A DNA stretch of 36,262 bases from a virus, in the IMG/VR virus record IMGVR_UViG_3300010430_000253, positions 1-36,262 of that record; one strand, 5' to 3'. A program made the position numbers and the translations under genes. Of the stretch, positions 3,075-34,798 are shown piece after piece; within the stretch, counting starts at the first letter, position 1, and each line of letters starts with the position of its first letter. The notes beneath the pieces are model-generated. The model did no database searches, was not told the origin of the DNA, and saw nothing but the letters and a program-made list of their open reading frames with translations.

Positions 3075-3703
3075 TACGATCTCCTGGGTTCTGTAGCTTC
3101 ATCAACCGCTTCTTTATGCCCTATACTGAGCAAGAAAGCCCGGTAGAACGCAGTGGCACGTGAAAGCTCTGCCGAAGCATCCTCCGTGTCCTTACTGAAG
3201 CCACGATATGCGATGTAATCGATGAGTGAATCAGCGTACATATCGCTGATGACTATGTTACCACCAGCAGTGGCGTCACCTGGTTTCGCGTTATACACCA
3301 CCTCGATTGCTTCGCCGCCTGCCTGGGGAGGAAAAAGTTCGAACTCCAACGGGTTACGCTCGTCGTAGAAAAAGTTCTCAGCTATTCCAGTCGTAGCAGC
3401 TCGCCACGTAGCGCTAAGTACGTCGACTATTGCATAATCTGATTGGTGGATAGCAGCGCCGTTACTGACGTTTTTAACCACGTCAACCAGGCGTATACCG
3501 TTATCCGGCAGTGCTTGCACTGTGCCAATTACCGCTGTGATATTGTCTCTTAGTACGTAGACATCTTCAGCTGGGCCTTTAGCAACAGCGCGCTGACCGT
3601 CATTCAGCCATTCAAGTAGCTCGGATTCCTCCCAGCGTACGTGTTCTTCATCATTCAGTAGCGCCGCTGCTCGGTTCAGGATGCTCCGGACTGTCGTTGC
3701 CAT
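3074..3703 (-). CDS. DUF6682-like head-completion/adaptor protein
   Basis: A 209-residue protein. The N-terminus (RSILNRAAALLNDEEHVRW, then 'ELLEWLNDGQRAV') is the helical start seen in phage DUF6682 / gp4-like adaptors. It is followed by a beta-rich section with 'NPLEFELFPPQ' and 'IEVVYNAKPGD', and a C-terminal helix 'DYIAYRGFSKDTEDA'. Such proteins bind the portal ring during head completion. Two adaptor-like genes in tandem fit a podovirus neck built from two rings. It overlaps the previous gene by about 50 bases and the next gene by one. Confidence 0.65.
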   Translation of the reverse strand: MATTVRSILNRAAALLNDEEHVRWEESELLEWLNDGQRAVAKGPAEDVYVLRDNITAVIGTVQALPDNGIRLVDVVKNVSNGAAIHQSDYAIVDVLSATWRAATTGIAENFFYDERNPLEFELFPPQAGGEAIEVVYNAKPGDATAGGNIVISDMYADSLIDYIAYRGFSKDTEDASAELSRATAFYRAFLLSIGHKEAVDEATEPRRS

Positions 3704-4097
3704 CTTGTTCTACCTCATGCATGGCAAGTGCGAACACTTCCTTCGCTTCTCTGCCTGTGAAATCAAAGTCTACTAGGTTTTTAAGTGCTGCGACCTTCGG
3801 ATGCCCCACTGTGGTGAAGTCTGCCGGGTTACCCCGAACAATCAGCTCTTTACACGCCTCAAGCAAGCCAACGGTCACTGTCTCTTCACGGGTCTTGTTC
3901 TCGGGTACCTCCGGTGTCGTTTCCAGCGGCGTCTCGGGTATCAACCCTGCTGCGATAGCAGCATCGAACAACCTGCGTCCAATCTGCCGCGTTTGTCCTG
4001 CTTCGAACACTGAGCACTGTCCGCCGTCCTCTGACACTATGGTGACATCGCGGGGGGAGGTGAACTTAGCCGATGCGGGTCTTGTATCCAGTTCCAT
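3651..4097 (-). CDS. Hypothetical virion-region protein
   Basis: A 148-residue protein. Its start is supported by GGAG six bases upstream of ATG at 4097. The N-terminal half has short beta strands; the C-terminus is acidic and proline-rich (EQDGNDSPEHPEP) and probably disordered. It sits between the capsid gene and the adaptors, where head-completion or capsid-associated proteins are usual, and a terminator separates it from the capsid gene. I do not recognise the family. Confidence 0.6.
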   Translation of the reverse strand: MELDTRPASAKFTSPRDVTIVSEDGGQCSVFEAGQTRQIGRRLFDAAIAAGLIPETPLETTPEVPENKTREETVTVGLLEACKELIVRGNPADFTTVGHPKVAALKNLVDFDFTGREAKEVFALAMHEVEQDGNDSPEHPEPSSGATE

Positions 4098-4110
4098 AAT
4101 AACACTCCAG

Positions 4111-4144
4111 GGTAAAAAGAAGGGCCTACTGTTAGGTAGGCCCT
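4111..4144 (-). terminator. Rho-independent terminator after the capsid gene
   Basis: A 9-bp perfect stem, AGGGCCTAC / GTAGGCCCT (4121-4129 and 4136-4144), has a 6-base loop. Read on the minus strand it is followed by TCTTTTT. It lies 10 bases downstream of the capsid stop and ends the capsid transcript before the adaptor genes, probably incompletely, so adaptors are made at lower levels than capsid. Confidence 0.8.
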
Positions 4145-4154
4145 TGAGTTGGCT

Positions 4155-5252
4155 TTAGATAGCCGTATCTACAACAACCAGGCCAAAGTCAATAGGCGTG
4201 GTACCAGTGTAGATGCTGTTGAACCGAGGTTTCAGCAAGCCGAAGATTTTACCAATCGACACACCGTGCTGGTTACCATAGTCGAACGTGTTCTCGTCCC
4301 AGTACGGCAAGCCAATATCGGCCATGCCCATCGCTTGTGCGCCACAGAACAGCACTCTCTGACCAGTCTCAGCTCCAGCGCCCCAGGTAGATGATGTATG
4401 CACGTGTCGGAACTCGTGAATAATCAAACCATCCTGAGTAATCATGCTGCCGCTGAACAGCGGGTTAGCCGTGCTACGCGGACCTGCGTTCTGCAAGTTA
4501 GCGAGGAACGTCGAAGACTGTTTCAGCTTGGCAATGCCTTGCGGCGACATGAAGACGTGGTAATACTCTGCGCCGCCAGGTCCCTTGATACCACGGATGT
4601 ACTCGTCCTTCATCCATGCTTTCGTCTCGACAAGCATTTCCCAGGTAGGTATATCTGTGTCACGTATAGCTGTGGTGTCACCAGTGGACAAGCCGTTGGT
4701 GGCATCCCACTGACGGAAACGCGCAGTCGACGGAGCCGTTACGTCACTAGCAAAGGCCAGGTCGTTCAGGTTACGTCCAGTCGGGTTGACCGGGCGAAGC
4801 ACATCGCTGTTGTTGTAGGTGTACGCGACACCTGACATGGTAAGGAAAGCCATCTGATCAATGCGATCAGCAAGCCAGTAGGCCAGTACATCTTTCGACG
4901 TACCGCGGAAATTGACAACAGATCGCTGATCAGCCATGCGACCGGCGAGGCGGTTAGCGTTACGCAGCTGGTCAATCGTGATGACCTCGTCGTAAGCCTT
5001 GATGGCCTCTTCGTTGTTCTCCATCGTGTAGTCGCCTACGACGCCGTCCCCTTCCAGGTCCGCAACGAGCGTTAGAACTGCGCGATCACCTTTCTCACTT
5101 TTGGTGAGTTCAGTAATTCGCTGGATCATGCTGTTGGGGCCCTTTCCAGTAAACCGCATTGTAAACGACGCATTGCGAGCCGCAGCCCAGAGGTCACGAG
5201 ACCATACGGTCTTCTCCTCTGTGGTGAGGGCCGTAAAGTTTGTCATCGCCAT
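4155..5252 (-). CDS. Major capsid protein (N4-gp56 / DUF4043-like)
   Basis: A 365-residue HK97-fold coat protein. The opening 'NFTALTTEEKTVWSRDLW', the following 'FTGKGPNSMIQRITELTKSE', the 'GDRAVLTLVADLEGDGVVGD' strand and the 'RMADQRSVVNFR' helix are characteristic of the DUF4043 / N4-gp56 major capsid family. Length fits the family (350-400). Translation starts at ATG 5252 with GGAG eight bases upstream; a second in-frame ATG lies two codons on. It forms its own transcription unit between two terminators (5384-5411 and 4111-4144), which would allow the high expression a coat protein needs. It lies just downstream of the scaffold-like gene, as usual. Confidence 0.88.
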   Translation of the reverse strand: MAMTNFTALTTEEKTVWSRDLWAAARNASFTMRFTGKGPNSMIQRITELTKSEKGDRAVLTLVADLEGDGVVGDYTMENNEEAIKAYDEVITIDQLRNANRLAGRMADQRSVVNFRGTSKDVLAYWLADRIDQMAFLTMSGVAYTYNNSDVLRPVNPTGRNLNDLAFASDVTAPSTARFRQWDATNGLSTGDTTAIRDTDIPTWEMLVETKAWMKDEYIRGIKGPGGAEYYHVFMSPQGIAKLKQSSTFLANLQNAGPRSTANPLFSGSMITQDGLIIHEFRHVHTSSTWGAGAETGQRVLFCGAQAMGMADIGLPYWDENTFDYGNQHGVSIGKIFGLLKPRFNSIYTGTTPIDFGLVVVDTAI

Positions 5253-5433: not shown

Positions 5434-6495
5434 TTACAATATGTCGCCGCGTAATCGCCGTTTCGTAGATTCTGGTAAAGCATCAAACTGTTCATCAGAC
5501 ATAGAACTAACGTCTGTTATAGGTTCCTGACTCTCACCTTTAGCCTTGCCCTTGATCTCAGGTGGTTGATTATTAGCAACATCGACCTTCGCTTTCACGT
5601 CAGTGCGTTTGATGTCTACTACGTTGTCAGGGACCTCTTCCGCACCGGTCTTTACCAGGTCGTGCAGTTTCGCAGCGCGCTCAGCAGCTCGTTGCAAAGC
5701 TTCCACCCTAGTAAATCTACCAGACTGTGCATAACCGACGTACAAGTCGATCATCTCCTCGCGGGCGTCGGGGTTATAATTCTCAGCCTGCGTACTGAAC
5801 TGCGGATAATCTTCTTCGATTAAAGCACCAGCTTCCTCGAAACTTACGTCTTCGCGGGACTGGATATCCCCGGACTCCGAGATTTTCTTGGCCTCGGCTA
5901 AAGTTTCTTCGCGTTCAGCCTTCCTGATCTCAGCGCGGAGTGCTGCGTACTTGTCCTGATCGCCTTCCAGTAAGGCATCCATTGCTTCTTTTTCTTTGGT
6001 CGCGTAATCGTAGGGGGGTGCAGGCTCGGGTGCATTTTTCTCCTCAACTATGCCCTCAAGCTGTTTTTCGAGGGTTTCGACTTTCTTCTCCGCCGACTTC
6101 ATGCGGTCGTTAACCTCATCGAAGCGGTCCTTGGGAATCTTCGGGTCGTCGTCCTCTAATACGACTTCTTCTTCGGTTTTTTCTTCTTCGGTTGTTTCGT
6201 CTTTCTCTTCGGCTTCGGCATCTGTCTCGTCCTTAACATCGTCGTCAGAACTCTTTGCATCGGAGTCATCGGAGTCATCGTCATTTACAGCCTCCTCCGC
6301 AGCGTCTCGCTCTGCGAGTAACTCGGCTTCTTCCTCCGTCTCGGGGGGATGTGTCTCCACCGTAGTCGTAGTGTTCTCGTCCTGGATATACTCCATGTCC
6401 GAGAGATCGTCCTCTTCACCACCAATGAACGGATCAGTTAAGACCGGTGCGGTGGTTTCTTTCTGTTTCTCTGCCTTTGCTTTTTTCTTAGCCAT
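5434..6495 (-). CDS. Acidic scaffold-like head assembly protein
   Basis: A 353-residue, extremely acidic protein with a short basic start (KKKAKAEKQKE). Residues about 20-120 are dominated by Asp/Glu/Thr/Ser runs, then comes a predicted coiled coil ('MKSAEKKVETLEKQLEGIVEE'). The middle is helical, and the C-terminus is short and basic (ESTKRRLRGD). This composition and its place between portal and capsid are the signature of phage scaffolding proteins, which drive capsid assembly and then leave or are degraded; the basic tail is where scaffolds usually contact the coat. No protease domain is visible. Its ATG overlaps the portal stop. Function is inferred from composition and order. Confidence 0.75.
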   Translation of the reverse strand: MAKKKAKAEKQKETTAPVLTDPFIGGEEDDLSDMEYIQDENTTTTVETHPPETEEEAELLAERDAAEEAVNDDDSDDSDAKSSDDDVKDETDAEAEEKDETTEEEKTEEEVVLEDDDPKIPKDRFDEVNDRMKSAEKKVETLEKQLEGIVEEKNAPEPAPPYDYATKEKEAMDALLEGDQDKYAALRAEIRKAEREETLAEAKKISESGDIQSREDVSFEEAGALIEEDYPQFSTQAENYNPDAREEMIDLYVGYAQSGRFTRVEALQRAAERAAKLHDLVKTGAEEVPDNVVDIKRTDVKAKVDVANNQPPEIKGKAKGESQEPITDVSSMSDEQFDALPESTKRRLRGDIL

Positions 6496-10034: not shown

Positions 10035-11861
10035 TTAAGACCCCATCATGGTGCGCGCACCGCGGTGCATGCTGCTTAACCTGTCGCGCCAACTTGCTCG
10101 TTTCTTCAGCACGCTGTAGTTCCGTCCCGGTGACGGCATGTCAGATGCCATCAACGCCAACCAGGCTGCTGCATCGACGTGATCGTCACGCCTACCGTAC
10201 GGAAACTGCAGCAGCTCCGTAACAAATTCATCCACCCAGTCACATTCGTCAGGGTGCGGCAGCCAGACTTTGCCTTGCCGCATAAGTCCCTGCAGGCTGC
10301 GACAACGCTTCAATTTGTTGCCTTCCTGCGCCGGACGAAGTTCCTCAATGTGCATGGCGTATAGTTCCCTATCCTCTATGACGGTGTCGAGCAAAGGCCC
10401 CACGGCCTGCGCTACTTTGTCCTTCTCGATACCCACCGTGTACGGCAAATGCTTCTCATAACTGTCACAGATTTCGTCACATATCGTGAACGCGTCGAAA
10501 TGCCCGTGACGACAGTCAACGAACCAGAACTGCCCTATCGTATCCTTACCCCACGTCATACCGACAGTTTTGTCGTTAACCTCTTTCTGCCCAATAGCCA
10601 GGTCCCAGGCGCTCGCCTTGGTCAGCTCCTCGGGCAGGTCTTCCTTGCGGTAATACTTGATCATCGACTTCTGAAACGCAGCCCCCTCGTCGGGCACCGG
10701 ATTTTGCTGGTAAAGCGCCGCCCAGGTGCGCTCGCCGACTGCCTTACGAATCATCTTCAGCTGCGCGTGGTTGTACCGGTCTGCGTGCAGTGGATCACCT
10801 TTGCGCCGATGTTTCTCGTCATCGACCGCGACTGCCGGGTAACGCACCACCTCGAACACGTCGCCTTCGCCTTCAGCCATATCAGCCTCCAGACGGCCCG
10901 ACAAATCGTCAAGGTGCCAACGCGTCTGAATAACAAGCACTCCGCCACCCGGTGCCAAGCGCGTGTACGCCGTCGATGAATACCACCTTATAATGCCCTC
11001 GCGCTTCAGCTCACTCTCTGCCTCCTGCGAGTTCTTGATCGGATCATCAATGATCAGCACGTGCGCGCCCTTACCCGTGATCGGCCCTTCCACTCCGGCA
11101 GGCAGGAAACCACCTTTCTTCTTCGTCTTCCAGCCCTTGGCGTTCTGGTTCTCAGGGTCAAGATGTGTTGACGGGAACAACACGCTGTACTCTTTATCCC
11201 TGAGTCGCTGACGCACATTCCTGGAAAAGTCCAACGCCAAAGACTCCGCATAAGAACAAACAATAAGCTCCCAGTTAGGATGATGACCCAAGAGCCACGC
11301 CGGAAACTCCTGACTAGCTATCATCGACTTGCCGTGCCGCGGCGGCATCTGCAGCAACAAGCGCGGGTTCTTCCCTTGCTCCACGTCGCGCATGAACTTC
11401 TCCAGGCGAGCGCAAATATCCTTATGCACCCAGCCCGCCAAATAGTCAGGGTTGAACCGCAAGATACTCGCTATCAAGTACTTCCTGGAAAGCTCACGCT
11501 GCGCCAGCTCACGCTGCGCATTGTTATAGTCAACTTCGTCGGCCAGCTCGGCCATTTTCTGCAGCTCGGCATCCTTGTTTTTAAGCGCCCTGGCCGCAGC
11601 GTTTTTCTTCCTCGATGCAATCAGTCGGCGGGTTCGTGTCTTAAGCCGCCGCGCCTTAACCGCAGCTCGCGCTTTAGCACACTCCTCAGGCCACTTCTTC
11701 TCCATCACAGTGAGCCATCTGCCGTTTATTTTCAGTGGTATGGGCTTTCGCTTGCGCTTACCTTCTAACCGCGCCTGGTTCTGAGCGTCGTGGCGCATGC
11801 GCTCGAAATACGCGCGCTTAACCCGGGCAGTCTGCTGCTTATTCAAAAGCTGGCTCTTCAC
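10035..11861 (-). CDS. terL: Terminase large subunit
   Basis: This 608-residue DNA-packaging motor cuts concatemers and pumps DNA through the portal. The ATPase has an adenine/Walker A segment 'MPPRHGKS' at about 172-179 and a Walker B 'HVLIIDDP' with the acidic pair near 272-273. The nuclease domain begins with 'SAWDLAIG' (Asp near 420) and ends with the conserved 'RDDHVDAAAWL'. The start is GTG 11861 with AAAGGTG upstream, overlapping terS by 23 bases. It is longer than the usual 450-520 residues because of an N-terminal, highly basic, helical extension of about 120 residues rich in Lys/Arg/Ala. Confidence 0.93.
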   Translation of the reverse strand: MKSQLLNKQQTARVKRAYFERMRHDAQNQARLEGKRKRKPIPLKINGRWLTVMEKKWPEECAKARAAVKARRLKTRTRRLIASRKKNAAARALKNKDAELQKMAELADEVDYNNAQRELAQRELSRKYLIASILRFNPDYLAGWVHKDICARLEKFMRDVEQGKNPRLLLQMPPRHGKSMIASQEFPAWLLGHHPNWELIVCSYAESLALDFSRNVRQRLRDKEYSVLFPSTHLDPENQNAKGWKTKKKGGFLPAGVEGPITGKGAHVLIIDDPIKNSQEAESELKREGIIRWYSSTAYTRLAPGGGVLVIQTRWHLDDLSGRLEADMAEGEGDVFEVVRYPAVAVDDEKHRRKGDPLHADRYNHAQLKMIRKAVGERTWAALYQQNPVPDEGAAFQKSMIKYYRKEDLPEELTKASAWDLAIGQKEVNDKTVGMTWGKDTIGQFWFVDCRHGHFDAFTICDEICDSYEKHLPYTVGIEKDKVAQAVGPLLDTVIEDRELYAMHIEELRPAQEGNKLKRCRSLQGLMRQGKVWLPHPDECDWVDEFVTELLQFPYGRRDDHVDAAAWLALMASDMPSPGRNYSVLKKRASWRDRLSSMHRGARTMMGS

Positions 11862-14893: not shown

Positions 14894-14972
14894 ACTAATC
14901 GGATTCCTCGCTGTTTGTTTTCTTGCCTACCAATGGTTCGACCAACAATACGGAGATCACGATGATGACTAG
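14886..14972 (+). CDS. 28-residue single-pass membrane mini-protein
   Basis: ATG 14886 has GGAG seven bases upstream, overlaps the stop of the previous gene and itself overlaps the start of the next one. The product is one hydrophobic span (LELIGFLAVCFLAYQWF) with an acidic tail ending in three Asp. Good ribosome site and double overlap argue for a real gene. Confidence 0.55.
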   Translation: MLELIGFLAVCFLAYQWFDQQYGDHDDD

Positions 14973-15219
14973 CTCCCCTGTGATTCATCTACGACCCGCA
15001 ACAGCCTGCCACAAAGCCATGACCGGTATCTTACAAACCGAATGTCAAACCTGTCACATACTCATAGACATCGACGTTCAACTTATCAAAGACTTACCAC
15101 CATGCAAAAACTGTGGTCCTACCCAATGGCACTATGTCACACCCGCCATTGATATCCTCAACACTCTCGGCTATACCAAACACTTAGCCGAACAACACGC
15201 TCCACTCACCAATAAATAA
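14962..15219 (+). CDS. Zinc-ribbon protein, 85 residues
   Basis: Start chosen at ATG 14962 because GGAG lies six bases before it; a further ATG follows immediately. Two cysteine pairs, 'CQTC' and 'CKNC', about 25 residues apart form a likely zinc ribbon. It is one of several small zinc-ribbon proteins in the rightward region. A terminator follows, so it is the last gene of this first early operon. Function unknown. Confidence 0.65.
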   Translation: MMTSSPVIHLRPATACHKAMTGILQTECQTCHILIDIDVQLIKDLPPCKNCGPTQWHYVTPAIDILNTLGYTKHLAEQHAPLTNK

Positions 15220-15231
15220 CTAACACCAAGT

Positions 15232-15277
15232 CCTAGTTCATACCCAACAAGTATGAGCTAGGCGTTTCCTCTTTTTT
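15232..15277 (+). terminator. Rho-independent terminator of the first rightward operon
   Basis: A 12-bp stem, CCTAGTTCATAC (15232-15243) / GTATGAGCTAGG (15251-15262), has one T-G wobble and loop CCAACAA. It is followed by CGTTTCCTC and then six T residues (15272-15277). Confidence 0.8.
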
Positions 15278-15303
15278 ACCTATAGCCTAATAGTGGGTAC
15301 TAA

Positions 15304-15357
15304 CCCCACGAGCAGCTACGTAGTGAGTATCACGAACTACGCTGCTCGCTGGTGGGG
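15304..15357. other. Long interrupted stem-loop in control region B
   Basis: Three nested stems share one 11-base loop (15325-15335): CCCCA/TGGGG (15304-15308 and 15353-15357), CGAGCAG/CTGCTCG (15309-15315 and 15342-15348) and CGTAGT/ACTACG (15319-15324 and 15336-15341), with small internal bulges. There is no T-run after it, so it is not a simple terminator. It could be a DNA cruciform, an operator for a dimeric regulator, or a structured leader/sRNA. Confidence 0.7.
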
Positions 15358-15373
15358 TGGTGGGTGTATTTAA

Positions 15374-15410
15374 TTGGTTGTGCGAATTAAGAAACGACTG
15401 ATTATGTAAG
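15374..15410 (+). promoter_or_regulatory. Rightward promoter-like box, copy B
   Basis: TTGGTTGTGCGAATTAA and then TGATTATGTAAG repeat the two blocks of box A (13879-13910), with longer spacing between them. Box B lies after a terminator and a stem-loop and before the next operon, whose first start codon is at 15442. The position and the shared blocks suggest a second rightward promoter of the same class. Confidence 0.45.
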
Positions 15411-15441
15411 TAATTAAACTTTTAATTAGTAGGAGACAATC

Positions 15442-15495
15442 ATGAACTGTTACACAGGTATTGGCGCAAGACAGACACCCGCTGATGGAGACTAA
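15442..15495 (+). pseudogene. 5' remnant of a SLOG/DprA-like gene
   Basis: ATG 15442 with GGAG upstream opens a 17-codon frame, MNCYTGIGARQTPADGD, then TAA. 'Y-T-G-I-G-(A/S)-R-x-T-P' is the N-terminal nucleotide-binding motif of phage SLOG/DprA-like Rossmann proteins of about 150-200 residues, which often sit beside macro-domain genes. Here everything after the motif is missing and the macro gene begins two bases later. The ribosome sites GGAGACAATCATGAA (15432-) and GGAGACTAATCATGAA (15487-) are near-identical, so a deletion between similar repeats is plausible. The peptide may still be translated. Confidence 0.55.
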
Positions 15496-15497
15496 TC

Positions 15498-15959
15498 ATG
15501 AAACGCGAATTCGGAAACATGTGGACCATCTTCGACCACACCGACAACTTCATCATCACTACTAACTCGTACATACGTGCAGATGGTGCACTTGTTATGG
15601 GACGTGGTATCGCAGCTGAAGTCAAAGCACGATACCCCCACGTACCTCACGAACTTGGTGCAATGATTAACCATCTCAGCCTATATGGCCTGGTCACTTT
15701 GATGACCAAGCAAGGCCTACCTACTATTAGTGCATTCCAAGTTAAATATCACTACTCAGACCCGGCAACGCTAGAACTCATTCAATACTCAACCACGTAC
15801 CTGGACACACTAGCATCAGAAATACCTGAATGTCGCTTCGACATGAACTTCCCTGGCATCGGCAATGGCAAGCTTGCCTACGACGATGTCCTACCCATAA
15901 TTCAACAACTCCCAGATAACATACATATCTGGACATTCCACCCTGGAGACAACTCATGA
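15498..15959 (+). CDS. Macro-domain protein (ADP-ribose binding)
   Basis: A 153-residue single-domain protein. 'FIITTNSYIRADGALVMGRGIA' near residues 12-35 matches the macro-domain start with the ADP-ribose-binding G-x-G loop; 'FPGIGNGKLAYDD' near 118-130 matches the second ligand loop (usually 'PGIG.G'), followed by the terminal strand 'NIHIWTFHP'. Macro domains bind or hydrolyse ADP-ribose, ADP-ribose-1''-phosphate or ADP-ribose on proteins and nucleic acids. In phages they are thought to process NAD-derived metabolites or counter NAD-based immunity. ATG 15498 has GGAG seven bases upstream. Its neighbours include a SLOG-like remnant upstream and a Tad2-like gene 4.5 kb downstream. Confidence 0.82.
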   Translation: MKREFGNMWTIFDHTDNFIITTNSYIRADGALVMGRGIAAEVKARYPHVPHELGAMINHLSLYGLVTLMTKQGLPTISAFQVKYHYSDPATLELIQYSTTYLDTLASEIPECRFDMNFPGIGNGKLAYDDVLPIIQQLPDNIHIWTFHPGDNS

Positions 15960-16243
15960 AACGTATCAATCCCAGACTGCAGCATATGCTGCCAACCAAA
16001 ATACAACTCAAACGTGATCTCAATGACTGTGATCCACTCCCTAAACCGACACTCCGCTGGATGTGTCCTCAATGTGACAATCAATATGTCACAGAAAAAA
16101 CCTTCCTTACCTACTACAACTGTCGCTGTGGTTGGGAAGGTACTCGCATCGATTTACTACTCGCTACACCAATGAAACTTCGAGACGACTATGTCCTCGT
16201 ATCAAGCATATTAAAGGAAGACACTCATGCCGTATCTAAATGA
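15956..16243 (+). CDS. Zinc-ribbon protein, 95 residues
   Basis: ATG 15956 overlaps the macro gene stop (ATGA) and has GGAG upstream. In the middle of the protein 'MCPQCDNQYVTEK' and then 'YNCRCGWEG' give a C-x2-C ... C-x-C-G zinc ribbon; flanking parts are basic at the N-terminus and helical at the C-terminus. Coupling to the macro gene suggests co-expression, but no function is known. Confidence 0.65.
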   Translation: MKRINPRLQHMLPTKIQLKRDLNDCDPLPKPTLRWMCPQCDNQYVTEKTFLTYYNCRCGWEGTRIDLLLATPMKLRDDYVLVSSILKEDTHAVSK

Positions 16244-16424
16244 AAACATGAGTGAACTAGCTTGTCGCGAACGTGTTGAACATCTCAAATCTCACGAACA
16301 AATCGTTGAAGCCCTTGCTCTCGTACAAAAGCAACTCGACTCGCAAAGCAAGGCCCTTAAACTATTGCACGAAATGTGCAACATACTGAAAAAGGAAATC
16401 CAATGCTTGAAGCAGGACTCTTAA
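16227..16424 (+). CDS. Short coiled-coil protein, 65 residues
   Basis: ATG 16227 lies inside the end of the previous gene, with AAAGGAAG upstream. After a short polar start the protein is almost one helix with heptad leucines ('QIVEALALVQKQLDSQSKALKLLHEMCNILKKEI'). It probably dimerises. No family recognised. Confidence 0.6.
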   Translation: MPYLNENMSELACRERVEHLKSHEQIVEALALVQKQLDSQSKALKLLHEMCNILKKEIQCLKQDS

Positions 16425-16690
16425 CAGCAATCGGTGTCATCTGGATACTCAGCCGGATGAATCTTAAACGCATAGCAGGTTATGCGTTACCAGTAGATAT
16501 CGCATTAACGTCTGGATTGGCATTTATATTTATAGGTACCTATGCCGGACTCATGACTGGTATACTAGCAGGATTGATAATCAGCATCTTCTTAACTGGT
16601 GTTAAGAAAACACTAGGCGCTGAACGCTTAAGATTAGAACGTAAAGAAGGTGATGCACTACCACGAGCTAGATGGAAGGAGGTTAAATGA
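16403..16690 (+). CDS. Membrane protein, 95 residues
   Basis: Start chosen at ATG 16403, which has AAGGAA five bases upstream. It has hydrophobic spans near residues 5-18, 28-45 and 47-65 ('GLAFIFIGTYAGLMTGILAG'), then a basic cytoplasmic tail (RLRLERKEGDALPRARW). The topology resembles small phage inner-membrane proteins; a holin or exclusion role is possible but unsupported. Its stop overlaps the HNH start. Confidence 0.6.
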   Translation: MLEAGLLTAIGVIWILSRMNLKRIAGYALPVDIALTSGLAFIFIGTYAGLMTGILAGLIISIFLTGVKKTLGAERLRLERKEGDALPRARWKEVK

Positions 16691-17142
16691 AAAAAGGATC
16701 AAGAGCGCCAATGCCAGCCAGGTTTTGGAACTTTATTGTTTCAAAGCCTGATTGCTGGCTATGGCGTAACACAACAGGCCGACCTAAATTCTGGCATGAA
16801 GGAAAGTTCGTACCTGCTTCAAGAATAGCTTACGAACTTACTTATGGCCCCATACCCAATAACAAGATCATATGCCACCACTGCGACAACCCACGATGTG
16901 TCCGACCTGATCACCTATACATAGGTACATATCAATCAAATATGATTGATAGAGAAGTAAGAGGTAACACTGCTAAAGGTGAAGCTATAGGCACATCAAA
17001 ACTTAAAACTAAGCAAGTAGTTGAGATACGACAACTACTAAGAAACGGCAAAAACCAACAGGCTATTGCTCTTAGATACGGTGTCCATCAAGGCACTATT
17101 TCTCGTATTAAGCGTAATAAAACTTGGAAGGAAGTGAAATGA
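16687..17142 (+). CDS. HNH endonuclease with C-terminal HTH
   Basis: A 151-residue protein of the free-standing HNH homing-endonuclease type. The core is 'ICHHCDNPRCVRPDHLYIGT' (residues about 60-80), giving the first His, the zinc Cys pair and the last His-Leu of the beta-beta-alpha-metal fold. A linker with 'NMIDREVRGN' follows. The C-terminus is a helix-turn-helix (ALRYGVHQGTISRIKRNKTW) for DNA recognition. A very good AAGGAGG site precedes ATG 16687, which overlaps the membrane-protein stop. Its coding strand lacks the strong C bias of the genes before it, consistent with a recently moved element. Confidence 0.85.
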   Translation: MKKGSRAPMPARFWNFIVSKPDCWLWRNTTGRPKFWHEGKFVPASRIAYELTYGPIPNNKIICHHCDNPRCVRPDHLYIGTYQSNMIDREVRGNTAKGEAIGTSKLKTKQVVEIRQLLRNGKNQQAIALRYGVHQGTISRIKRNKTWKEVK

Positions 17143-17339
17143 GTGCGTACACAAAGAATCTACGTAACATCGCAACTAATCTTCGTACTGAAGGTTGGGA
17201 CATGCGTGCACATGCTATTGAACATGCAGCTGATCGCATGGATGCAATGGAAGAGCTTATCACTAACTTGATGGAAGGAGAAAATGTTGCCAAAGAAACC
17301 CAAAGGCAAGAAAGACAAGAAAGGAACGCCAAGGGATAA
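17139..17339 (+). CDS. Small helical protein, 66 residues
   Basis: ATG 17139 overlaps the HNH stop (ATGA), with AAGGAAG before it. The product is helical: 'NLRNIATNLRTEGWDMRAHAIEHAADRMDAMEELI' and then a charged Gln/Glu/Arg tail. Comparable small helical proteins are common in phage early regions. No function known. Confidence 0.6.
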   Translation: MSAYTKNLRNIATNLRTEGWDMRAHAIEHAADRMDAMEELITNLMEGENVAKETQRQERQERNAKG

Positions 17340-17562
17340 GTCACCAAATGAAATTGAACTGTATTTTCAATGCAGTCAATGTCTCGATGAATTGCCCTAT
17401 GGTGTGTCACCAGCTGAATATGCCAACCTTAATGTCGGCTGGTCAAAGCCAGGTATACAAGTCTGGTGTAACCGTCATGATTGCAACATCATTCATATTG
17501 ATTTTGAAGGTGTAAAACATCATTTAGTAGAGGAGAACACTGCATATGTCAAAACGCACTAG
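17284..17562 (+). CDS. Zinc-ribbon protein with lysine-rich start, 92 residues
   Basis: ATG 17284 follows AAGGAG and overlaps the previous gene by 56 bases. A lysine-rich N-terminus (PKKPKGKKDKKG) precedes 'QCSQCLDEL' and, 38 residues on, 'WCNRHDCNIIHIDF', a likely four-ligand zinc site. It ends with a His pair (VKHHLVEE). It could bind nucleic acid through the basic tail. Family not recognised. Confidence 0.6.
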   Translation: MLPKKPKGKKDKKGTPRDKSPNEIELYFQCSQCLDELPYGVSPAEYANLNVGWSKPGIQVWCNRHDCNIIHIDFEGVKHHLVEENTAYVKTH

Positions 17563-17671
17563 CAACAAAAAGAGCAGGGATCGTAAGACCCCTGCTCGAT
17601 CACAACCCAAGCAAAGCAAGTATGGCTTGAAACATCGTGTAATACGAGCATTCAAACGCTTGTTCAAGTAG
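17546..17671 (+). CDS. 41-residue arginine/lysine-rich peptide
   Basis: ATG 17546 lies 11 bases after an AGGAG and within the end of the previous gene. The product is extremely basic (about 18 Lys/Arg of 41; 'KRTSNKKSRDRK', 'KHRVIRAFKRLFK') with a possible amphipathic C-terminal helix. It may bind nucleic acid or membranes. Tight packing between two genes supports it. Confidence 0.5.
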   Translation: MSKRTSNKKSRDRKTPARSQPKQSKYGLKHRVIRAFKRLFK

Positions 17672-17686
17672 TCAATGGAGACAATC

Positions 17687-17875
17687 GTGATCAGACTACG
17701 AGTAGCATTCATCGACGGTACATTTGTCGATAAAGAATACCTCAATCATGAGATCGAAACAGTAGAACTCATGATTGAGGGCACGCCTCGTGATCTACTC
17801 TGTCGAGTAGAACTAGAGGACAACACAGAAACCTTAATCTATAAATACTCAAGGAAACCAGACTATGTCTACTAA
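17687..17875 (+). CDS. Hypothetical beta-rich protein, 62 residues
   Basis: GTG 17687 is preferred over ATG 17675 because GGAGACAATC precedes it at the same spacing as in the repeated initiation cassette found before 15442. The product is small and mostly beta ('RLRVAFIDGTFVDKEYLNHE', 'RVELEDNTETLIYKY'). The stop overlaps the next start. Function unknown. Confidence 0.55.
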   Translation: MIRLRVAFIDGTFVDKEYLNHEIETVELMIEGTPRDLLCRVELEDNTETLIYKYSRKPDYVY

Positions 17876-18917
17876 GACGACAAAGAAACAAGCCAACAAA
17901 AAAGCAAAACGCAAACAAGCAAAGAAAGACGGACTCGCTGATCTCAAGCGCCTGGCACGTAACAAGAAAGCACGCGAACAACGTGCTGCCAAAAAACAAG
18001 AGAAACTCAACGAAGAGAACGCAGAGAAGAAGCGCCTCACTTCAATTACTGAAGGTGTAACCATCCCTGTCTCTAACGAGATGGAACCTGAAGGTTCACA
18101 TTCAATTGACCATGGCACTATCATGGACAATCATATTGAACCTGATACCAACAAGCATCCTGCTGAAGACCTCAAATTACACGAAACAGCTGATTTATCC
18201 TTCTGGAATAACAGCTGGTGCTGGGTCGAAGCTGCCAACAGCTACGGTAATAAGCCACAAGATAAGTGGTTCATCAATCCAACCTCAGAACTCATTGGCA
18301 AGGTCATGCTCAATGCACCTACCATCATGAGTGCTTGTGAAGTTGGTCTCATCGCTGGTCAACATGTAGAGCAACTCAAACGTGAGCGAGAACGCCACGT
18401 TGAGTTTCTAAGAACTTGCGAACCAGGTGATATCGTATCTGAAGCACTAGATATGTTGACTGCGTATCAAGGAAGATACTTTGAGTGTGTACAACGATAT
18501 CTTGGCTTAGAAGCAAGCTATCACAATCAACAGAACAGCAAGAACATTTCATCAGAGCAACTGGAGAATGCTCAGCTTCGTAAGCACAATGCTGGTGGAC
18601 AGTGCAGATCATGGGCTGCCAAGCTCATAGCACTGGTCGAAGGATACAATGCAACAGTCTCTGACGAACGAGCGTTTAAACTCTCGTTTGACTTCGCGCC
18701 GTTGCCACCTGATGACAATCGTCCACCAACTCGTGAATACAGCTTGTACAAATGGTCGGTAACCAACACCCTCAATAAGGTAGGACGCCGACTTGCTCGT
18801 AGCATCAAGGAAGGCAAAATGGATGCAGAGAAATATCGCATCCCTCGTCCCTGGCTAGAAGAGTCCCAGCTGAAGAGTCAAGTTGGTGCCAACGAACTAC
18901 TTAGTGACTTTGCATAA
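17865..18917 (+). CDS. Hypothetical protein with lysine-rich N-terminus, 350 residues
   Basis: The largest gene of the accessory region. Residues 1-65 are a Lys/Ala/Arg-rich, highly charged helix; residues about 90-345 look globular with 'LSFWNNSWCWVEAANSYG', 'KWFINPTSELIGKVMLNAPTIMSACEVG' and several long helices. ATG 17865 has AAGGAAAC upstream. It is the last gene before a strong terminator, so it ends an operon that starts near 15442. I see no known catalytic motif. A nucleic-acid-associated scaffold or early takeover protein are possibilities, unsupported. Confidence 0.7.
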   Translation: MSTKTTKKQANKKAKRKQAKKDGLADLKRLARNKKAREQRAAKKQEKLNEENAEKKRLTSITEGVTIPVSNEMEPEGSHSIDHGTIMDNHIEPDTNKHPAEDLKLHETADLSFWNNSWCWVEAANSYGNKPQDKWFINPTSELIGKVMLNAPTIMSACEVGLIAGQHVEQLKRERERHVEFLRTCEPGDIVSEALDMLTAYQGRYFECVQRYLGLEASYHNQQNSKNISSEQLENAQLRKHNAGGQCRSWAAKLIALVEGYNATVSDERAFKLSFDFAPLPPDDNRPPTREYSLYKWSVTNTLNKVGRRLARSIKEGKMDAEKYRIPRPWLEESQLKSQVGANELLSDFA

Positions 18918-18952
18918 ATCAGCGCGATTCTCTCCCATCGCAAATGTCACTA

Positions 18953-18986
18953 CCCGGTCAGGCCCTGTGCCTGGCCGGGCTTTTTT
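18953..18986 (+). terminator. Strong Rho-independent terminator
   Basis: An 11-bp stem, CCCGGTCAGGC (18953-18963) / GCCTGGCCGGG (18969-18979), has one T-G wobble, loop CCTGT, then C and six T residues. It ends the macro/HNH operon. Confidence 0.9.
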
Positions 18987-19018
18987 ACCCCATTACTGTA
19001 TGTGGGTTGGAGACCATT

Positions 19019-19285
19019 ATGAAAGTTGTTTACAACGTCTGTCCAAACAAAGAATGTGGAAAAACACTGGATGGAGCAACTAATGCTGATGATATAAATG
19101 ATAAATCATCACCAGAACCAGGTGATGTCAGCATCTGTACTTATTGCGAAACCTTCCTCGTCTACGACGACACCATGACATTACAATTTCTTGACCCAGA
19201 CAAAGAATCACCAATAACAATGCTTGGTCTTGAACAAGCGCTTAGGTACATACGCGAACTTAAGGTAACCGGAGAACTGGAATGA
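19019..19285 (+). CDS. Zinc-ribbon protein, 88 residues
   Basis: Start at ATG 19019 because GGAGACCATT precedes it, a variant of the recurrent initiation cassette. 'CPNKECGKTL' and 'ICTYCETFLVY' give C-x4-C ... C-x2-C. The C-terminal half is helical. It is the first gene after the terminator, so a promoter should lie between 18987 and 19010, although none is obvious. It overlaps the next gene (ATGA). Confidence 0.65.
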   Translation: MKVVYNVCPNKECGKTLDGATNADDINDKSSPEPGDVSICTYCETFLVYDDTMTLQFLDPDKESPITMLGLEQALRYIRELKVTGELE

Positions 19286-19464
19286 AATGCCTTGTATGTC
19301 ATTCAGATGAAATTGAATGGTTAGAAACCATAATGCTTGATCCAGAGGAAGGTTATGAATCGTATACGTGCAGGAATTGCAGGAGCAAGTTCGAGCTTGG
19401 GATTAAAGTTACGAGGCTTATCTACACAGGTCGTGACAACGTGTTCCCGTTTGAAAACGAGTGA
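19282..19464 (+). CDS. Zinc-ribbon protein, 60 residues
   Basis: A complete two-knuckle ribbon: 'CLVCHSDEIEW' at the start and 'YTCRNCRSKFELG' 25 residues later, then a short beta strand and an acidic end. This is the architecture of MJ0042/C4 finger-like phage proteins. ATG overlaps the stop of the preceding zinc-ribbon gene, suggesting that two related small proteins are co-made. Confidence 0.65.
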   Translation: MKCLVCHSDEIEWLETIMLDPEEGYESYTCRNCRSKFELGIKVTRLIYTGRDNVFPFENE

Positions 19465-19765
19465 AGTAGCAGAAGCACTAATAGCTACATGGTGTGTTGA
19501 GTTCTTAAGAGTGAGAAAGATAGGTGGACTTAACGTAGTACAGATTGTAACTATCAGCGTACTAATGTTAGGAGTGAAAACAATCATCACTGAAGCCAGT
19601 AGGAGGCGATACGGTGGAAAAGATAAATCAATTGTTGTGTCAAATAGGACTACATCGGTGGAGTCCATGGGAATCCATGGAAACTCCTATGTTCCCAATC
19701 AGCGGGTACGACGCGCTCGAAGATATCAACGACGTGACCATAGAGACCCGTACGAGAACTTGTGA
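19451..19765 (+). CDS. Possible membrane protein, doubtful
   Basis: An open frame fills the otherwise gene-free stretch 19465-19613 and carries a hydrophobic segment (GLNVVQIVTISVLMLGVKTII) followed by a basic part. It has no good ATG/ribosome site: TTG 19451, GTG 19511 or an upstream ATG at 19337 are possible. Beyond 19614 it overlaps a better-supported gene in another frame, so the true end may not be used. Confidence 0.25.
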   Translation: MKTSEVAEALIATWCVEFLRVRKIGGLNVVQIVTISVLMLGVKTIITEASRRRYGGKDKSIVVSNRTTSVESMGIHGNSYVPNQRVRRARRYQRRDHRDPYENL

Positions 19766-19814
19766 ACGGGGAACATGTGGCAAAGGTCAGATAAGAAAGG
19801 TGTTGCACTGGTGA
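19614..19814 (+). CDS. Small Cys-containing phage protein, 66 residues
   Basis: GTG 19614 is preceded by GGAGG seven bases upstream. The protein has 'IGLHRWSPWESM' near the start and 'TRTCERGTCGKGQ' near the end, a layout common in short phage proteins with one zinc knuckle (usually C-x2-C-G; here C-x4-C). The TGA overlaps the next ATG. Confidence 0.6.
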   Translation: MEKINQLLCQIGLHRWSPWESMETPMFPISGYDALEDINDVTIETRTRTCERGTCGKGQIRKVLHW

Positions 19815-20386
19815 TGGATAGACTATCATTCGGGGTTATGCCCGATCGTCATATGATGATAGATATCGAAACCCTGGACACTGCAGTCACAGCAGCGATC
19901 CTCGCCATTGGTGCAGTAGTTTTCAATCCGCGGGGAGAAATATTGGAAGATACCTTCCATGTCACTATTTCAGCAGACGAAAATGAGAAACACGGTCGTA
20001 CCGTCTCACGGTCTACCGTAGCCTGGTGGCATCAACAAGACCAGGAAGCACAAGATGCTGTCTTCAAAGGCCCGCACGTACCACTAAATCTAGCACTGGC
20101 TAATTTTGCTCAGTGGGTAAATAGAATGGTTCCAACATGTACCAGGGTGTGGGCAAAATCACCAGACTTTGACTGTAATATCCTGATTCATGCGTGTGCA
20201 GAGCAAAATGTGCTTTGGCCATTTAAGTTCTGGGAAGGACGTTGTGTGCGTACCATCATGGAGCTTGCGTATGCTGGTGGTGATTTTCCACATATAGATA
20301 TGGAAGGTCCGAAGCATGATGCACTGGCTGATGCGAAACTGCAGGCAATGCAGGTCCAACACAGTTATTACGTACTAGGGGTTTAG
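19814..20386 (+). CDS. DEDD-type 3'-5' exonuclease (Rv2179c-like)
   Basis: Start at ATG 19814, overlapping the previous stop (TGATG); further ATGs at 19838 and 19853 are possible. The 190-residue protein carries 'MMIDIETLDTAVTAAILAIGAVVF' (Exo I motif D-x-E), 'AKSPDFDCNIL' (Exo II Asp) and 'GPKHDALADAKLQAMQ' (Exo III H-D-A-x-x-D), that is, a DEDDh active site. This is the small RNase T/Rv2179c-like family common in phages, which trims RNA or DNA 3' ends. It lies directly before a Tad2-like gene. Confidence 0.85.
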   Translation: MDRLSFGVMPDRHMMIDIETLDTAVTAAILAIGAVVFNPRGEILEDTFHVTISADENEKHGRTVSRSTVAWWHQQDQEAQDAVFKGPHVPLNLALANFAQWVNRMVPTCTRVWAKSPDFDCNILIHACAEQNVLWPFKFWEGRCVRTIMELAYAGGDFPHIDMEGPKHDALADAKLQAMQVQHSYYVLGV

Positions 20387-20387
20387 T

Positions 20388-20600
20388 ATGACGTTCGATA
20401 ACGCATTAAAGATGTTCAGACAAGGTGTCAACATGACCAGGCTTGACTGGGCTGATGCGAAACAGTCTGTATATCTTGAAGAACGTATCTTCAAGAAAAC
20501 TGTACGGGTATATGCAGACCAGATTAAATACTCAACCATTGCTTATTCATTTAGCAATGAAGACCTGTTAGCGAAGGACTGGGAGGTTACAAGATCATGA
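20388..20600 (+). CDS. DUF2829 / Tad2-like protein (putative Thoeris antagonist)
   Basis: A 70-residue protein with the full DUF2829 pattern: 'MTFDNALKMFRQGVNMTRLDW' at the start, a short beta segment ('VYLEERIF') and the terminal 'NEDLLAKDWEV'. DUF2829 proteins include Tad2, a phage protein that tetramerises and sequesters the cyclic ADP-ribose signal (gcADPR) made by TIR proteins, so blocking Thoeris defence. Length fits (70-100). Not all DUF2829 members have been tested, so binding of gcADPR here is inferred. It starts two bases after the exonuclease and overlaps the next gene. Confidence 0.78.
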   Translation: MTFDNALKMFRQGVNMTRLDWADAKQSVYLEERIFKKTVRVYADQIKYSTIAYSFSNEDLLAKDWEVTRS

Positions 20601-21001
20601 GCATTAATTTCGATGAAAGCATCCGGGCTATTTACTACGCTTCGTTGAACGAAAACTCAGACTGGATGCTTGGTATTAACGAAGAAGAAGAATATTGGCA
20701 CATTCAATATCGTTTTCGTTATTACCATAGTGATGATCCCTGGGATCAGGAAGACAAGAAAAACTGGTACGAAATACGGGTAAGCAAAACGGACTCCCTG
20801 GCATCAGTAATTGAAACCGTCAATGAAATGTTTAAGATCATAGAAGAAACAGCTGATGGTGATTGTTATAAATTGCTTCGTGGAGAAGGTACACACAAAC
20901 AGTTCTTCACTGAATTTGAAAAGCTGCCGTTTGTTCACAAGCGTGAAGCAACGGAAGAAGAGCGCCGTGAAATGGACATGGAGAGTCCTATAGAATCATG
21001 A
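20597..21001 (+). CDS. Hypothetical acidic protein, 134 residues
   Basis: ATG 20597 overlaps the DUF2829 stop, so the two are co-translated. The product is acidic and aromatic-rich ('EEEEYWHIQYRFRYYHSDDPWD', 'KNWYEIRVSKTDSLASVIETVNEM') with an acidic tail. The mix suggests a small alpha/beta domain. Its coupling to the Tad2-like gene makes it a candidate partner or second counter-defence protein, but there is no direct evidence. Confidence 0.65.
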   Translation: MSINFDESIRAIYYASLNENSDWMLGINEEEEYWHIQYRFRYYHSDDPWDQEDKKNWYEIRVSKTDSLASVIETVNEMFKIIEETADGDCYKLLRGEGTHKQFFTEFEKLPFVHKREATEEERREMDMESPIES

Positions 21002-21244
21002 GGTGTCAAGCGTCGTTCGGTACATCGCCGATCGGATTGTAGTAAGCCTGCTGGGTATGACCCGGGCTACGAACAGAAGACTTAAGAAGGCACTTATTGA
21101 CGCTGGTGCCTTGCCTCTCCAAAACACATGATTGTCTCCATGTTATATGACCTGGGATACAACGATCAGTGAGGTCATAGCCAGCTCGGGTGGCACTGGT
21201 GGTCAAGACGCCCCAATAGTTCATTAACCTTAGAAGGAAGGAAA
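21002..21244. other. 243-base gap with degenerate repeats and hairpins
   Basis: No convincing gene is visible on either strand. There are two imperfect copies of TATGACC(C/T)GGG(C/A)TAC at 21056-21073 and 21146-21163 (90 bases apart, 14 of 18 identical), a hairpin GGGT/ACCC around the first copy, and AAGGCAC/GTGCCTT near 21086-21112. Tiny overlapping frames exist but lack ribosome sites. It may be a decayed gene, a leader for the gene at 21245, or a structured RNA. Confidence 0.4.
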
Positions 21245-21742
21245 ATGTCAGACGAAACAGAATACGCGATGAAATATGCGCGTGAACGCCGTATGCGTAT
21301 CAATCTTGAGGACAGGTTACTCAGCCTCATGTATCGATTGGTGCCATATGCTGCAGTGACCAATGATCTTTGCCACAGAATAATCAGTAAAGAAGCTGAC
21401 GATGTTGCAGGAGCTATAGCACGCCTTGCCGAATGGCAAGGTGATGTCGAACTCAATTTGATGCTTAACCTGCTCAAACCTGCAGGTTTACTTGAGGGGA
21501 TCAGCATCGAAACCCTGGAAAACATAGATTGTTTACAAGACCTGCCAGACGAAGAGCTTAATCGACTGGAGACTATTACCAAGGGATGTTCTGAAAAGGT
21601 AGAAAAAGAATGGGACAAACTGGCAATTAGCCGCGGATATGCTACAGCAGAGGAGTACTGTGAAAGGCATAAAGAAGCGATTATCAAATCAACCCTCAAG
21701 GCTATGAAAAAGCACGGACTAAAACCGAGGTCTCATGTATAA
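21245..21742 (+). CDS. Hypothetical helical protein, 165 residues
   Basis: ATG 21245 has a doubled AAGGAAGG site upstream. The protein is helical throughout, with 'KYARERRMRINLEDRLLSLMYRL' near the start, 'LPDEELNRLETITKG' in the middle and a basic end. No motif recognised. It overlaps the ribbon-helix-helix gene by eight bases, so the pair may be a functional unit. Confidence 0.65.
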   Translation: MSDETEYAMKYARERRMRINLEDRLLSLMYRLVPYAAVTNDLCHRIISKEADDVAGAIARLAEWQGDVELNLMLNLLKPAGLLEGISIETLENIDCLQDLPDEELNRLETITKGCSEKVEKEWDKLAISRGYATAEEYCERHKEAIIKSTLKAMKKHGLKPRSHV

Positions 21743-22226
21743 ATATCACCAATACGAAGAAATCTATCCACGTATTTCCTTACACGATCCTGGCAGTAAG
21801 AGTAGACAACTTCCAGTACCTAAAAGAAAACGTGATCCCCCTGGATCGATTAAAGGTGAACTCGTTGCGGTCTTTTTCAAATTCGATATGGATCGTTATG
21901 CAGCCTTGGTAAAAATCCTTGATCGTACTCATTACTTGACAATTAAAAGGGAAGGGTTTCGACAGGAAGGCCCTATATCATTAGGCCAATTCGTACGAAT
22001 AGAGATTGATCGATGGCACAAAGATCACTACATTTTCGCCCGGTACGACTTGTCATACAAACCAGCCCACATCATCGAAGGCATACAGTTAAGGATCAGC
22101 ATAAGTCGCAGTACACGGGATAAATTGAACAAAGCGGCCAAGAAAGGTGGATTCACCGTATCGGCCCTGCTCCGGGTGCTGGTGGAACGTAAAATGGACG
22201 AAGTGCAGTCCTTATGTGGGCCGTAA
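21735..22226 (+). CDS. Ribbon-helix-helix DNA-binding protein, 163 residues
   Basis: The last 45 residues fit a ribbon-helix-helix (CopG/Arc) fold: strand 'IQLRISISRSTRD', helix 'RDKLNKAAKKGG' and helix 'TVSALLRVLVERKM'. The first 110 residues are basic and mostly beta, with no known motif ('GELVAVFFKFDMDRYAALVKIL'). RHH dimers bind short inverted or repeated sites. The gene ends 20 bases before a cluster of TGTTAC repeats, so it is the leading candidate to bind them, as an autoregulator or an origin-binding protein. That link is inferred from position. Confidence 0.6.
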   Translation: MYKYHQYEEIYPRISLHDPGSKSRQLPVPKRKRDPPGSIKGELVAVFFKFDMDRYAALVKILDRTHYLTIKREGFRQEGPISLGQFVRIEIDRWHKDHYIFARYDLSYKPAHIIEGIQLRISISRSTRDKLNKAAKKGGFTVSALLRVLVERKMDEVQSLCGP

Positions 22227-22245
22227 ACACCATTTATAGCCTTGT

Positions 22246-22545
22246 GTTACGTATGTTAAGTCAAAGTTACAGACAAAATCAAAAGACGTAACAAGCCCTA
22301 ACTAAAGCCAGTACTTAGTGCTAAGAAACTTTGTTACGGATGTTACATCAAACTCACACGATTAGGTTCTGGCTGAGTTCTGGTGGGAGGACCTACCCCC
22401 TACTACTACTGTATATGTTATATATATATTTTATATAATTAATGTAACAGTAGTAACAAATAAGTAAGGTATTTATAAAATTCAACAATTTACCTTTGTT
22501 ACAGCTTTTGATTTCCTGTGTAACTTTAGAGAAACCGGGTGTAAC
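22246..22545. repeat. Iteron cluster, candidate replication origin or operator array
   Basis: Ten copies of GTTAC or its complement GTAAC occur here: forward at 22246, 22266, 22333, 22342 and 22498; reverse at 22288, 22444, 22453, 22520 and 22541. Eight extend to TGTTAC/GTAACA. Two closely spaced pairs (22333/22342 and 22444/22453) are nine bases apart in the same orientation. In the middle (22411-22443) is an almost pure A/T tract with alternating TATATATAT. The 355-base region has no gene. Iterons plus an AT-rich unwinding-like element just before the replication genes is the classic origin layout; a multi-site operator is the alternative. Confidence 0.6.
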
Positions 22546-22580
22546 AACTTTCAACTGAAACCAAAAAGGAAGGAAACAAG

Positions 22581-22985
22581 ATGTCGAACCAATTGTTAAT
22601 TGATCTAGCAGATAACATCAAAGACTCACTTGAAGAGATCGATGAGAAGATTGAATCATCAAGAGCTGAAGCTGAAGAGTCTCGTGGTGATATTGATCAA
22701 GCTCGTGACATGCTCAGCAATGCGTACGATGAGGCTGAAAGGGCTGAGGACCGAGCTATCGAAGCAACTCAGCTTCTCAACAACGTAAAAGCGACGCTCG
22801 AAGAGCTAAGCACGAAGCTCCAGGGAGACGAACTCACAGGGCTTGATGCTGATATCGCCCGCAACAAAGCCGATGTCCTGAGGCTCCACAAGGCCGGACA
22901 CGGCATCGCAGCGATCGCCAAGCACAAGAAGATCAGCGAAAGCCTGGTCGACATCATCATCAGGCGAAACTTGGCGGCAGCATAG
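22581..22985 (+). CDS. Coiled-coil protein with C-terminal HTH, 134 residues
   Basis: ATG 22581 has AAGGAAGGAAA upstream. Residues 5-85 are an acidic, uninterrupted heptad helix ('SLEEIDEKIESSRAEAEESR', 'ARDMLSNAYDEAERAE'). The C-terminal 45 residues form a helix-turn-helix of the resolvase/transposase type ('ADVLRLHKAGHGIAAIAKHKKISESLVDIIIRR'). The layout suggests a dimeric DNA-binding protein. It is the first gene after the iteron cluster, so it could bind it or be controlled by it. Confidence 0.65.
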   Translation: MSNQLLIDLADNIKDSLEEIDEKIESSRAEAEESRGDIDQARDMLSNAYDEAERAEDRAIEATQLLNNVKATLEELSTKLQGDELTGLDADIARNKADVLRLHKAGHGIAAIAKHKKISESLVDIIIRRNLAAA

Positions 22986-34132: not shown

Positions 34133-34798
34133 ATGCCATCAACAAAGAAATCTGTAGTAAACATTCAAGACGAGCTTAAGAAAGAACTTACCGGGCTCAA
34201 GGATCGAGTAGAGCCACCCAGTGGCTACATGATCAGCACTAAAGGTAAAGTATTCAACCTGCCAAACGGTTCATCGAGCGATGGCCCTTTGACTTGCGTA
34301 GTCCTCGACTGGGCAACTGCAAATACTTACTTCGAAGGCATCTATAACCCCAAGGACATCAAGCCACCTGTGTGCTTCGCTATCGCAGATGAACCAGCCA
34401 AGGCTGCGCCGTCTGACAAGGCACCGAAGAAACAGGCTGAACTGTGTGCTGACTGTCCGAAGAACGAGTGGGGCTCTGACCCACAAGGCGGCAAAGGCAA
34501 GGCGTGCAAGAACACGCGGCGCTTGCTGATCGTGCCGATAGATGCCACCGAGAAGACACCACCCTGGATCATCAGCGTTTCGCCAACAGGCTTGAAGTAC
34601 TTTGACAAGTACGTCAATACGCTGGCTGACATGGGTACGCACCCGATCGAAGTGACTACGGACATTTCGTTCGAAGCTTCTGACGCCTTCCCGAGCCTAC
34701 GCTTCGAGGTTGTTGACAAGCACGATAACCTTAATATCATGTGGGCACTTAAAGGCCAGGGCCAGGAGATTCTGCACCAAGAACCGAAGCTGGACTGA
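34133..34798 (+). CDS. Putative ssDNA-binding protein, Cys-rich phage family
   Basis: A 221-residue protein of a widespread phage family. The N-terminal half has beta strands with 'VFNLPNGSSSDGPLTCVVLDWATANTYFEG' and 'DIKPPVCFAIADEP'; the middle carries the family signature 'LCADCPKNEWGS' with 'GKGKACKN', a four-Cys zinc or Fe-S site; the end has 'ISVSPTGLKYFDKYVNTL' and 'SLRFEVVD'. Members are usually next to the replication nuclease and DNA polymerase and are thought to bind ssDNA; this is inference from context and composition. AAAGGA precedes ATG 34133. It overlaps the sulfotransferase start. Confidence 0.65.
   Translation: MPSTKKSVVNIQDELKKELTGLKDRVEPPSGYMISTKGKVFNLPNGSSSDGPLTCVVLDWATANTYFEGIYNPKDIKPPVCFAIADEPAKAAPSDKAPKKQAELCADCPKNEWGSDPQGGKGKACKNTRRLLIVPIDATEKTPPWIISVSPTGLKYFDKYVNTLADMGTHPIEVTTDISFEASDAFPSLRFEVVDKHDNLNIMWALKGQGQEILHQEPKLD

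Follow-up and report, generated by a model that had tools for sequence, protein, structure and literature searches.

We propose, with moderate confidence, that two separate early-region genes of the virus studied counter ADP-ribose-based host immunity, one encoding a short Tad2-like sponge and the other a macrodomain hydrolase. The window, i.e., the whole stretch of DNA analysed, was the 36,262-nt virus record IMGVR_UViG_3300010430_000253 of IMG/VR (positions 1 to 36,262), and the region examined was 15442-20600. The minus strand of the window carries podovirus-type late genes, with TerL at 10035-11861 and further genes that are presumably those of tail proteins, the capsid, and the portal, as judged from gene order and from what is usual in such phages. 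The plus strand from approximately 13.9 kb is the early/replication region and would be expressed early in infection. Megablast of the whole region against phages gave no match. Phages are known to carry genes of each of these kinds (macrodomain, Tad2-fold protein, and SLOG) against host immunity. An earlier note on this DNA had read a SLOG remnant, the macro gene, and the Tad2-like gene as a single NAD-immunity island under joint selection, to which partner genes were coupled. The features are listed below; L038, L039, L140, and L155 denote related contigs.

15442-15495 (+): remnant (17 codons) of a SLOG gene (DprA-like, phrog_768) lost by deletion, with its ribosome-binding site; recognised from the sequence, the intact copy at the corresponding spot in L038, and the chance expectation
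15498-15959 (+): macrodomain protein (153 aa) of the DarG/TARG1/Poa1p class, with a conserved K83 as the counterpart of the catalytic lysine; phrog_335, profiles, model, alignment
15956-16243 (+): small zinc-ribbon-like protein, start overlapping the macro stop; weak Zn-ribbon match
19775-20386 (+): 3'-5' exonuclease (Rv2179c-like, phrog_255); profile matches, pair with Tad2 conserved in L039
20388-20600 (+): short Tad2-like (DUF2829, PF11195) protein (70 aa) without the insertion present in SPO1, Hgm, and Spt Tad2; Pfam, model, alignment
20597-21001 (+): uncharacterised ORF of 134 aa, start overlapping the Tad2 stop; ORF list

The SLOG remnant reads MNCYTGIGARQTPADGD followed by a stop codon, and its start codon is preceded by AGGAGA, a good Shine-Dalgarno sequence. 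A six-frame search of the window for the motif YTGIG[AS]R[QEN]TP, which corresponds to the N-terminus of phage SLOG proteins of the phrog_768 family, gave a single match vs. 8e-8 expected by chance. L038 (TerL 69% identical) has, beginning at the corresponding position, an intact SLOG gene of 170 aa (phrog_768, E 7e-61) whose stop overlaps the macro start. DNA alignment with L038 revealed that the window has kept the ribosome-binding site, the first dozen SLOG codons, and the bases just upstream of the macro start, and that approximately 460 bp from the middle of the gene are missing. "Remnant", as the earlier note had it, is therefore the correct term. Judging by the sequence, the gene is dead in the window, where 17 codons are left of the Rossmannoid domain that is intact in L038; SLOG cannot act there, and a functional SLOG was not supported.

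The macro ORF matched phrog_335 (E 6.8e-17), and a Pfam search of its product returned no macro match. Relatives were found in 155 phage records, mostly from phages of Pseudomonas and Vibrio, with many N4-like phages among them. Against solved structures, profile searches returned DarG, the DarTG fusion 7omu, and TARG1. The AlphaFold2 model (pLDDT 93.6) was most similar to DarG (5m3e; Z 18.0, 2.2 Å over 140 residues), followed by TARG1 (Z 16.2), Poa1p (Z 16.0), and YmdB (Z 13.3). Profiles and structure comparison thus confirmed a macro fold nearest to the ALC1/TARG1/DarG class. The family and coordinates given earlier hold, and of the two structures proposed for comparison, Poa1p was among the best matches; an affinity to YmdB was not upheld, being outscored by DarG, TARG1, and Poa1p alike. 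Over 14 phage relatives, N23, V33-M34-G35, G37, A39, F80-Q81-V82-K83, and H85 (VMGxGxA and FQVKxH) were invariant, and N117-x-P-G-I-G-x-G was near-invariant. K83 aligned with the catalytic lysines of DarG (K80) and TARG1 (K84). Since K83 is invariant and equivalent to DarG K80, the alanine mutant of which is inactive (PMC5179494), conservation favours a catalytic ADP-ribose hydrolase over a passive sensor of the Thoeris type.

The protein resembles DarG (5m3e, 5m3i, 7omu) and TARG1 (4j5r) in structural and profile matches and in the equivalent catalytic lysine, at 17-24% identity, and shares with DarG a GxGNGxL loop. Unlike DarG, it is a standalone 153-aa protein without the rest of DarG, and no DarT was recognised in profile scans of the neighbouring ORFs. 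It was not assigned as a DarG antitoxin, scoring 24.1 bits against the NCBIfam DarG model with its cut-off of 250. Assignment as a macro effector of Thoeris (Thoeris II ThsA, TM-macro) was also rejected: the product is a single macrodomain, and no TIR match was found in the scanned ORFs. The match (L002) from a first viral scan with the macro protein proved to be an unrelated gene. Most likely, the macrodomain would hydrolyse an ADP-ribose bond via the lysine equivalent to DarG K80, and its substrate may be either the nucleic-acid ADP-ribose that DarT makes or a soluble derivative of ADP-ribose; on the model, the scores of DarG, TARG1, and Poa1p are too close to pick between a nucleic-acid and a small-molecule substrate. 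In Pseudomonas phage Zuri (L126), a SLOG domain occurs in a transposase-annotated protein (3623-4570) with an annotated DarT-family ADP-ribosyltransferase nearby (5870-6253), in the early region of the phage itself.

The macrodomain of the window could instead be a general ADP-ribose-1''-phosphatase or ADP-ribose-clearing enzyme of RNA repair or nucleotide metabolism, with Tad2 as an unrelated accessory and the co-occurrence coincidental in a gene-rich early region. The Z of 16.0 with Poa1p fits this, as do phage relatives annotated as "phosphatase", which lie among early genes of N4-like phages without defence context, and the lack of a general association with Tad2. We regard it as rather unlikely: the scanned ORFs of the window included no recognisable gene for an RNA ligase, KptA, or a kinase, DarG and TARG1 score slightly above Poa1p, and pairing of SLOG with macro recurs.

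The product of 20388-20600 scored 37.1 bits with PF11195, above the gathering cut-off of 25. Its model, built from six sequences, had a pLDDT of 84.5 and superimposed on SPO1 Tad2 (8wje) with Z 12.2 and an rmsd of 0.9 Å over 63 of the 70 residues. His-ADPR-bound ModTad2 (9eib) gave Z 11.6 and AcrIIA7/HgmTad2 gave Z 10.5-11.2; the Tad2 entries listed thus scored 10.5-12.2, and the next unrelated chain 6.7. The DUF2829 (Tad2-like) assignment and coordinates of the earlier note were accordingly confirmed, and the comparison with Tad2 that it had proposed yielded a Tad2 fold. Tad2 is an established sponge (PMC12657218, PMC12043709), and ModTad2 binds His-ADPR (PMC13299392; the PDB title of 9eib says the same). 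The pocket for the ADP-ribose signal in Tad2 is formed by loop b1-b2, b3-b4, b4, and helix a3 across protomers (PMC12043709). The strands, loops, and helix described around it are present in the monomer model of the short protein, which we presume to form tetramers.

Alongside this common fold (rmsd 0.9-1.2 Å over 63 of 70 residues), the short protein shares with SPO1 Tad2 (8sme/8smf) and ModTad2 the N-terminal G13, R18, and W21 and a C-terminal DxLAxDW motif. It differs from both in length (70 vs. about 89 aa) and in having no insertion, with 21-27% identity. W21 is invariant, and because Tyr and Phe stand in the C-terminal motif where SPO1 has Trp and Pro, the ligand may differ from that of SPO1 Tad2. 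The insertion after the second strand binds cyclic dinucleotides in SptTad2 and HgmTad2 (review PMC12043709); both alignment and model showed it to be absent here. The short protein, presumably co-expressed with the exonuclease gene, would most likely sequester a TIR-made ADP-ribose signal of the gcADPR or His-ADPR type, and not cyclic dinucleotides. It offers a test of whether ADP-ribose signals can be bound without the cyclic-dinucleotide insertion. Tblastn of the protein against phages gave no match. Two Tad2-like genes in tandem, overlapping each other, were observed in another phage (L003; 7806-8228 and 8215-8403, plus strand), and likewise in L004, L005, and L006.

Members of the Tad2 family bind several ligands (9eib, 8smf, 8wjd), and AcrIIA7, annotated as an anti-CRISPR, belongs to the family and matches the short model (8kbi, Z 11.2); one phage DUF2829 protein is also annotated as anti-CRISPR. 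The product of 20388-20600 might thus be an AcrIIA7-like anti-CRISPR or a binder of a nucleotide other than the TIR signal, which we consider very improbable. AcrIIA7 (HgmTad2) was crystallised with cADPR and cGG (8kbj, 8kbk), and therefore the anti-CRISPR label does not exclude signal binding. The insertion that binds cyclic dinucleotides is absent from the short protein. A sponge for an ADP-ribose signal remains our preferred reading.

The macro and Tad2 genes are separated in the window by 4.4 kb with approximately 11 ORFs, including those of an HNH endonuclease, zinc-ribbon proteins, and a 350-aa protein. The Tad2 gene starts 1 nt after the exonuclease gene, and in L039 (TerL 74%) this pair is kept, while SLOG and macro are absent from its 44.9-kb contig. 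The SLOG-macro pair and Tad2 are therefore separate modules and do not form a single operon. In L140 (TerL 45%, capsid 62%), Tad2, SLOG, and macro are all present; L155 (TerL 44%) has Tad2 and SLOG and, as far as its contig reaches, no macro; SLOG and macro are present in L038, the contig of which ends before the Tad2 locus. The Tad2 of L140 and L155 is the longer canonical form, encoded on the strand opposite SLOG and on the terminase side of it, and that of the window and L039 is the short form behind the exonuclease. Two loci with two forms suggest separate acquisition or relocation. Because SLOG was lost in the window and no macro adjoins SLOG in L155, these data show that the three-gene set is not needed as a unit.

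SLOG lies directly upstream of macro in 3 of the 13 IMG/VR macro relatives (L038, L136, and L140). Among 80 TerL contigs, only L038 carries SLOG or macro. The pair is one of several SLOG contexts, since macro adjoins SLOG in only L038 and L140 among 80 SLOG loci. SLOG-Macro-NADAR neighbourhoods were reported in a survey of viral NAD/ADP-ribose proteins by Iyer et al. (2022), and phages were proposed to use SLOG/Macro/NADAR against soluble ADP-ribose signals (PMC9503650). The adjacency in the three contigs agrees with these neighbourhoods, and the window differs from them by its SLOG deletion. The macro gene of the window would formerly have overlapped a SLOG gene as one of a pair, the latter since cut to its 17-codon stub. 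The co-occurrence of SLOG and macro stated earlier was thus substantiated as a recurrent adjacent pair in phages. Beyond the lineage, Tad2 was not enriched with macro or SLOG (Tad2-macro link, p 0.32), Salmonella phage TR2 was the only co-carrier, and none of 26 SLOG records had Tad2. Within the library of papers searched, none joined Tad2, SLOG, and the macro domain.

Selection of all three genes as one island with coupled partners has in its favour that they lie within 5.2 kb in the window, that L140 has the complete set and L155 has Tad2 with SLOG, and that Fisher tests on TerL-lineage contigs gave p = 0.005 with the window and 0.027 without it, values that overstate the association because the contigs share ancestry and two of them, L140 and L155, came from searches for the genes themselves. 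The intervening ORFs, the tie of Tad2 to the exonuclease, its presence alone in L039, its different locus and strand in L140 and L155, and the destroyed SLOG gene make the joint island quite improbable. The recurrence of the three genes in changing combinations, with two Tad2 loci, nevertheless suggests selection, on the basis of five related contigs. An unlikely scenario is that this podovirus-like lineage acquired Tad2 twice (short behind the exonuclease, long near the terminase) beside a SLOG-macro pair that was gained, cut down, or lost, giving a modular kit of a sponge and a two-enzyme degrader acting on related ADP-ribose immune signals. Close relatives in which Tad2 is accompanied by SLOG and macro, or is not, form a natural series, which allows a direct test of the part of each gene in escaping Thoeris, DarTG, and other NAD-derived defences.

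A partner role was not supported for either of the two genes named as candidate partners. That at 15956-16243 encodes a small Zn-ribbon protein, a weak counterpart of which comes after macro in L038; for that at 20597-21001, searches found no relatives, and it does not adjoin Tad2 in L039. Small CxxC zinc-ribbon-like proteins cluster in the early region (14923-15219, 15956-16243, 17284-17562, 18944-19285, and 19282-19464), most without a family match. An HNH_3/HTH endonuclease gene was located at 16687-17142, between the macro and Tad2 regions, and a similar-looking HTH protein at 35784-36221 near the right end. Homing endonucleases could help to shuffle the SLOG-macro and Tad2 modules. Strong terminator-like hairpins were observed at 15232-15262 and 18953-18979, the former separating the gene that ends at 15219 from the SLOG remnant/macro unit; terminator-like sites in 14900-22600 numbered 17 vs. 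6.7 in shuffles. The product of 34798-35442 had a weak Sulfotransfer_2 match (E 0.0015, below the Pfam cut-off) and, near its start, a KCGHTS motif like the phosphate-binding loop of sulfotransferases. To our knowledge, a phage-encoded sulfotransferase would be unusual.
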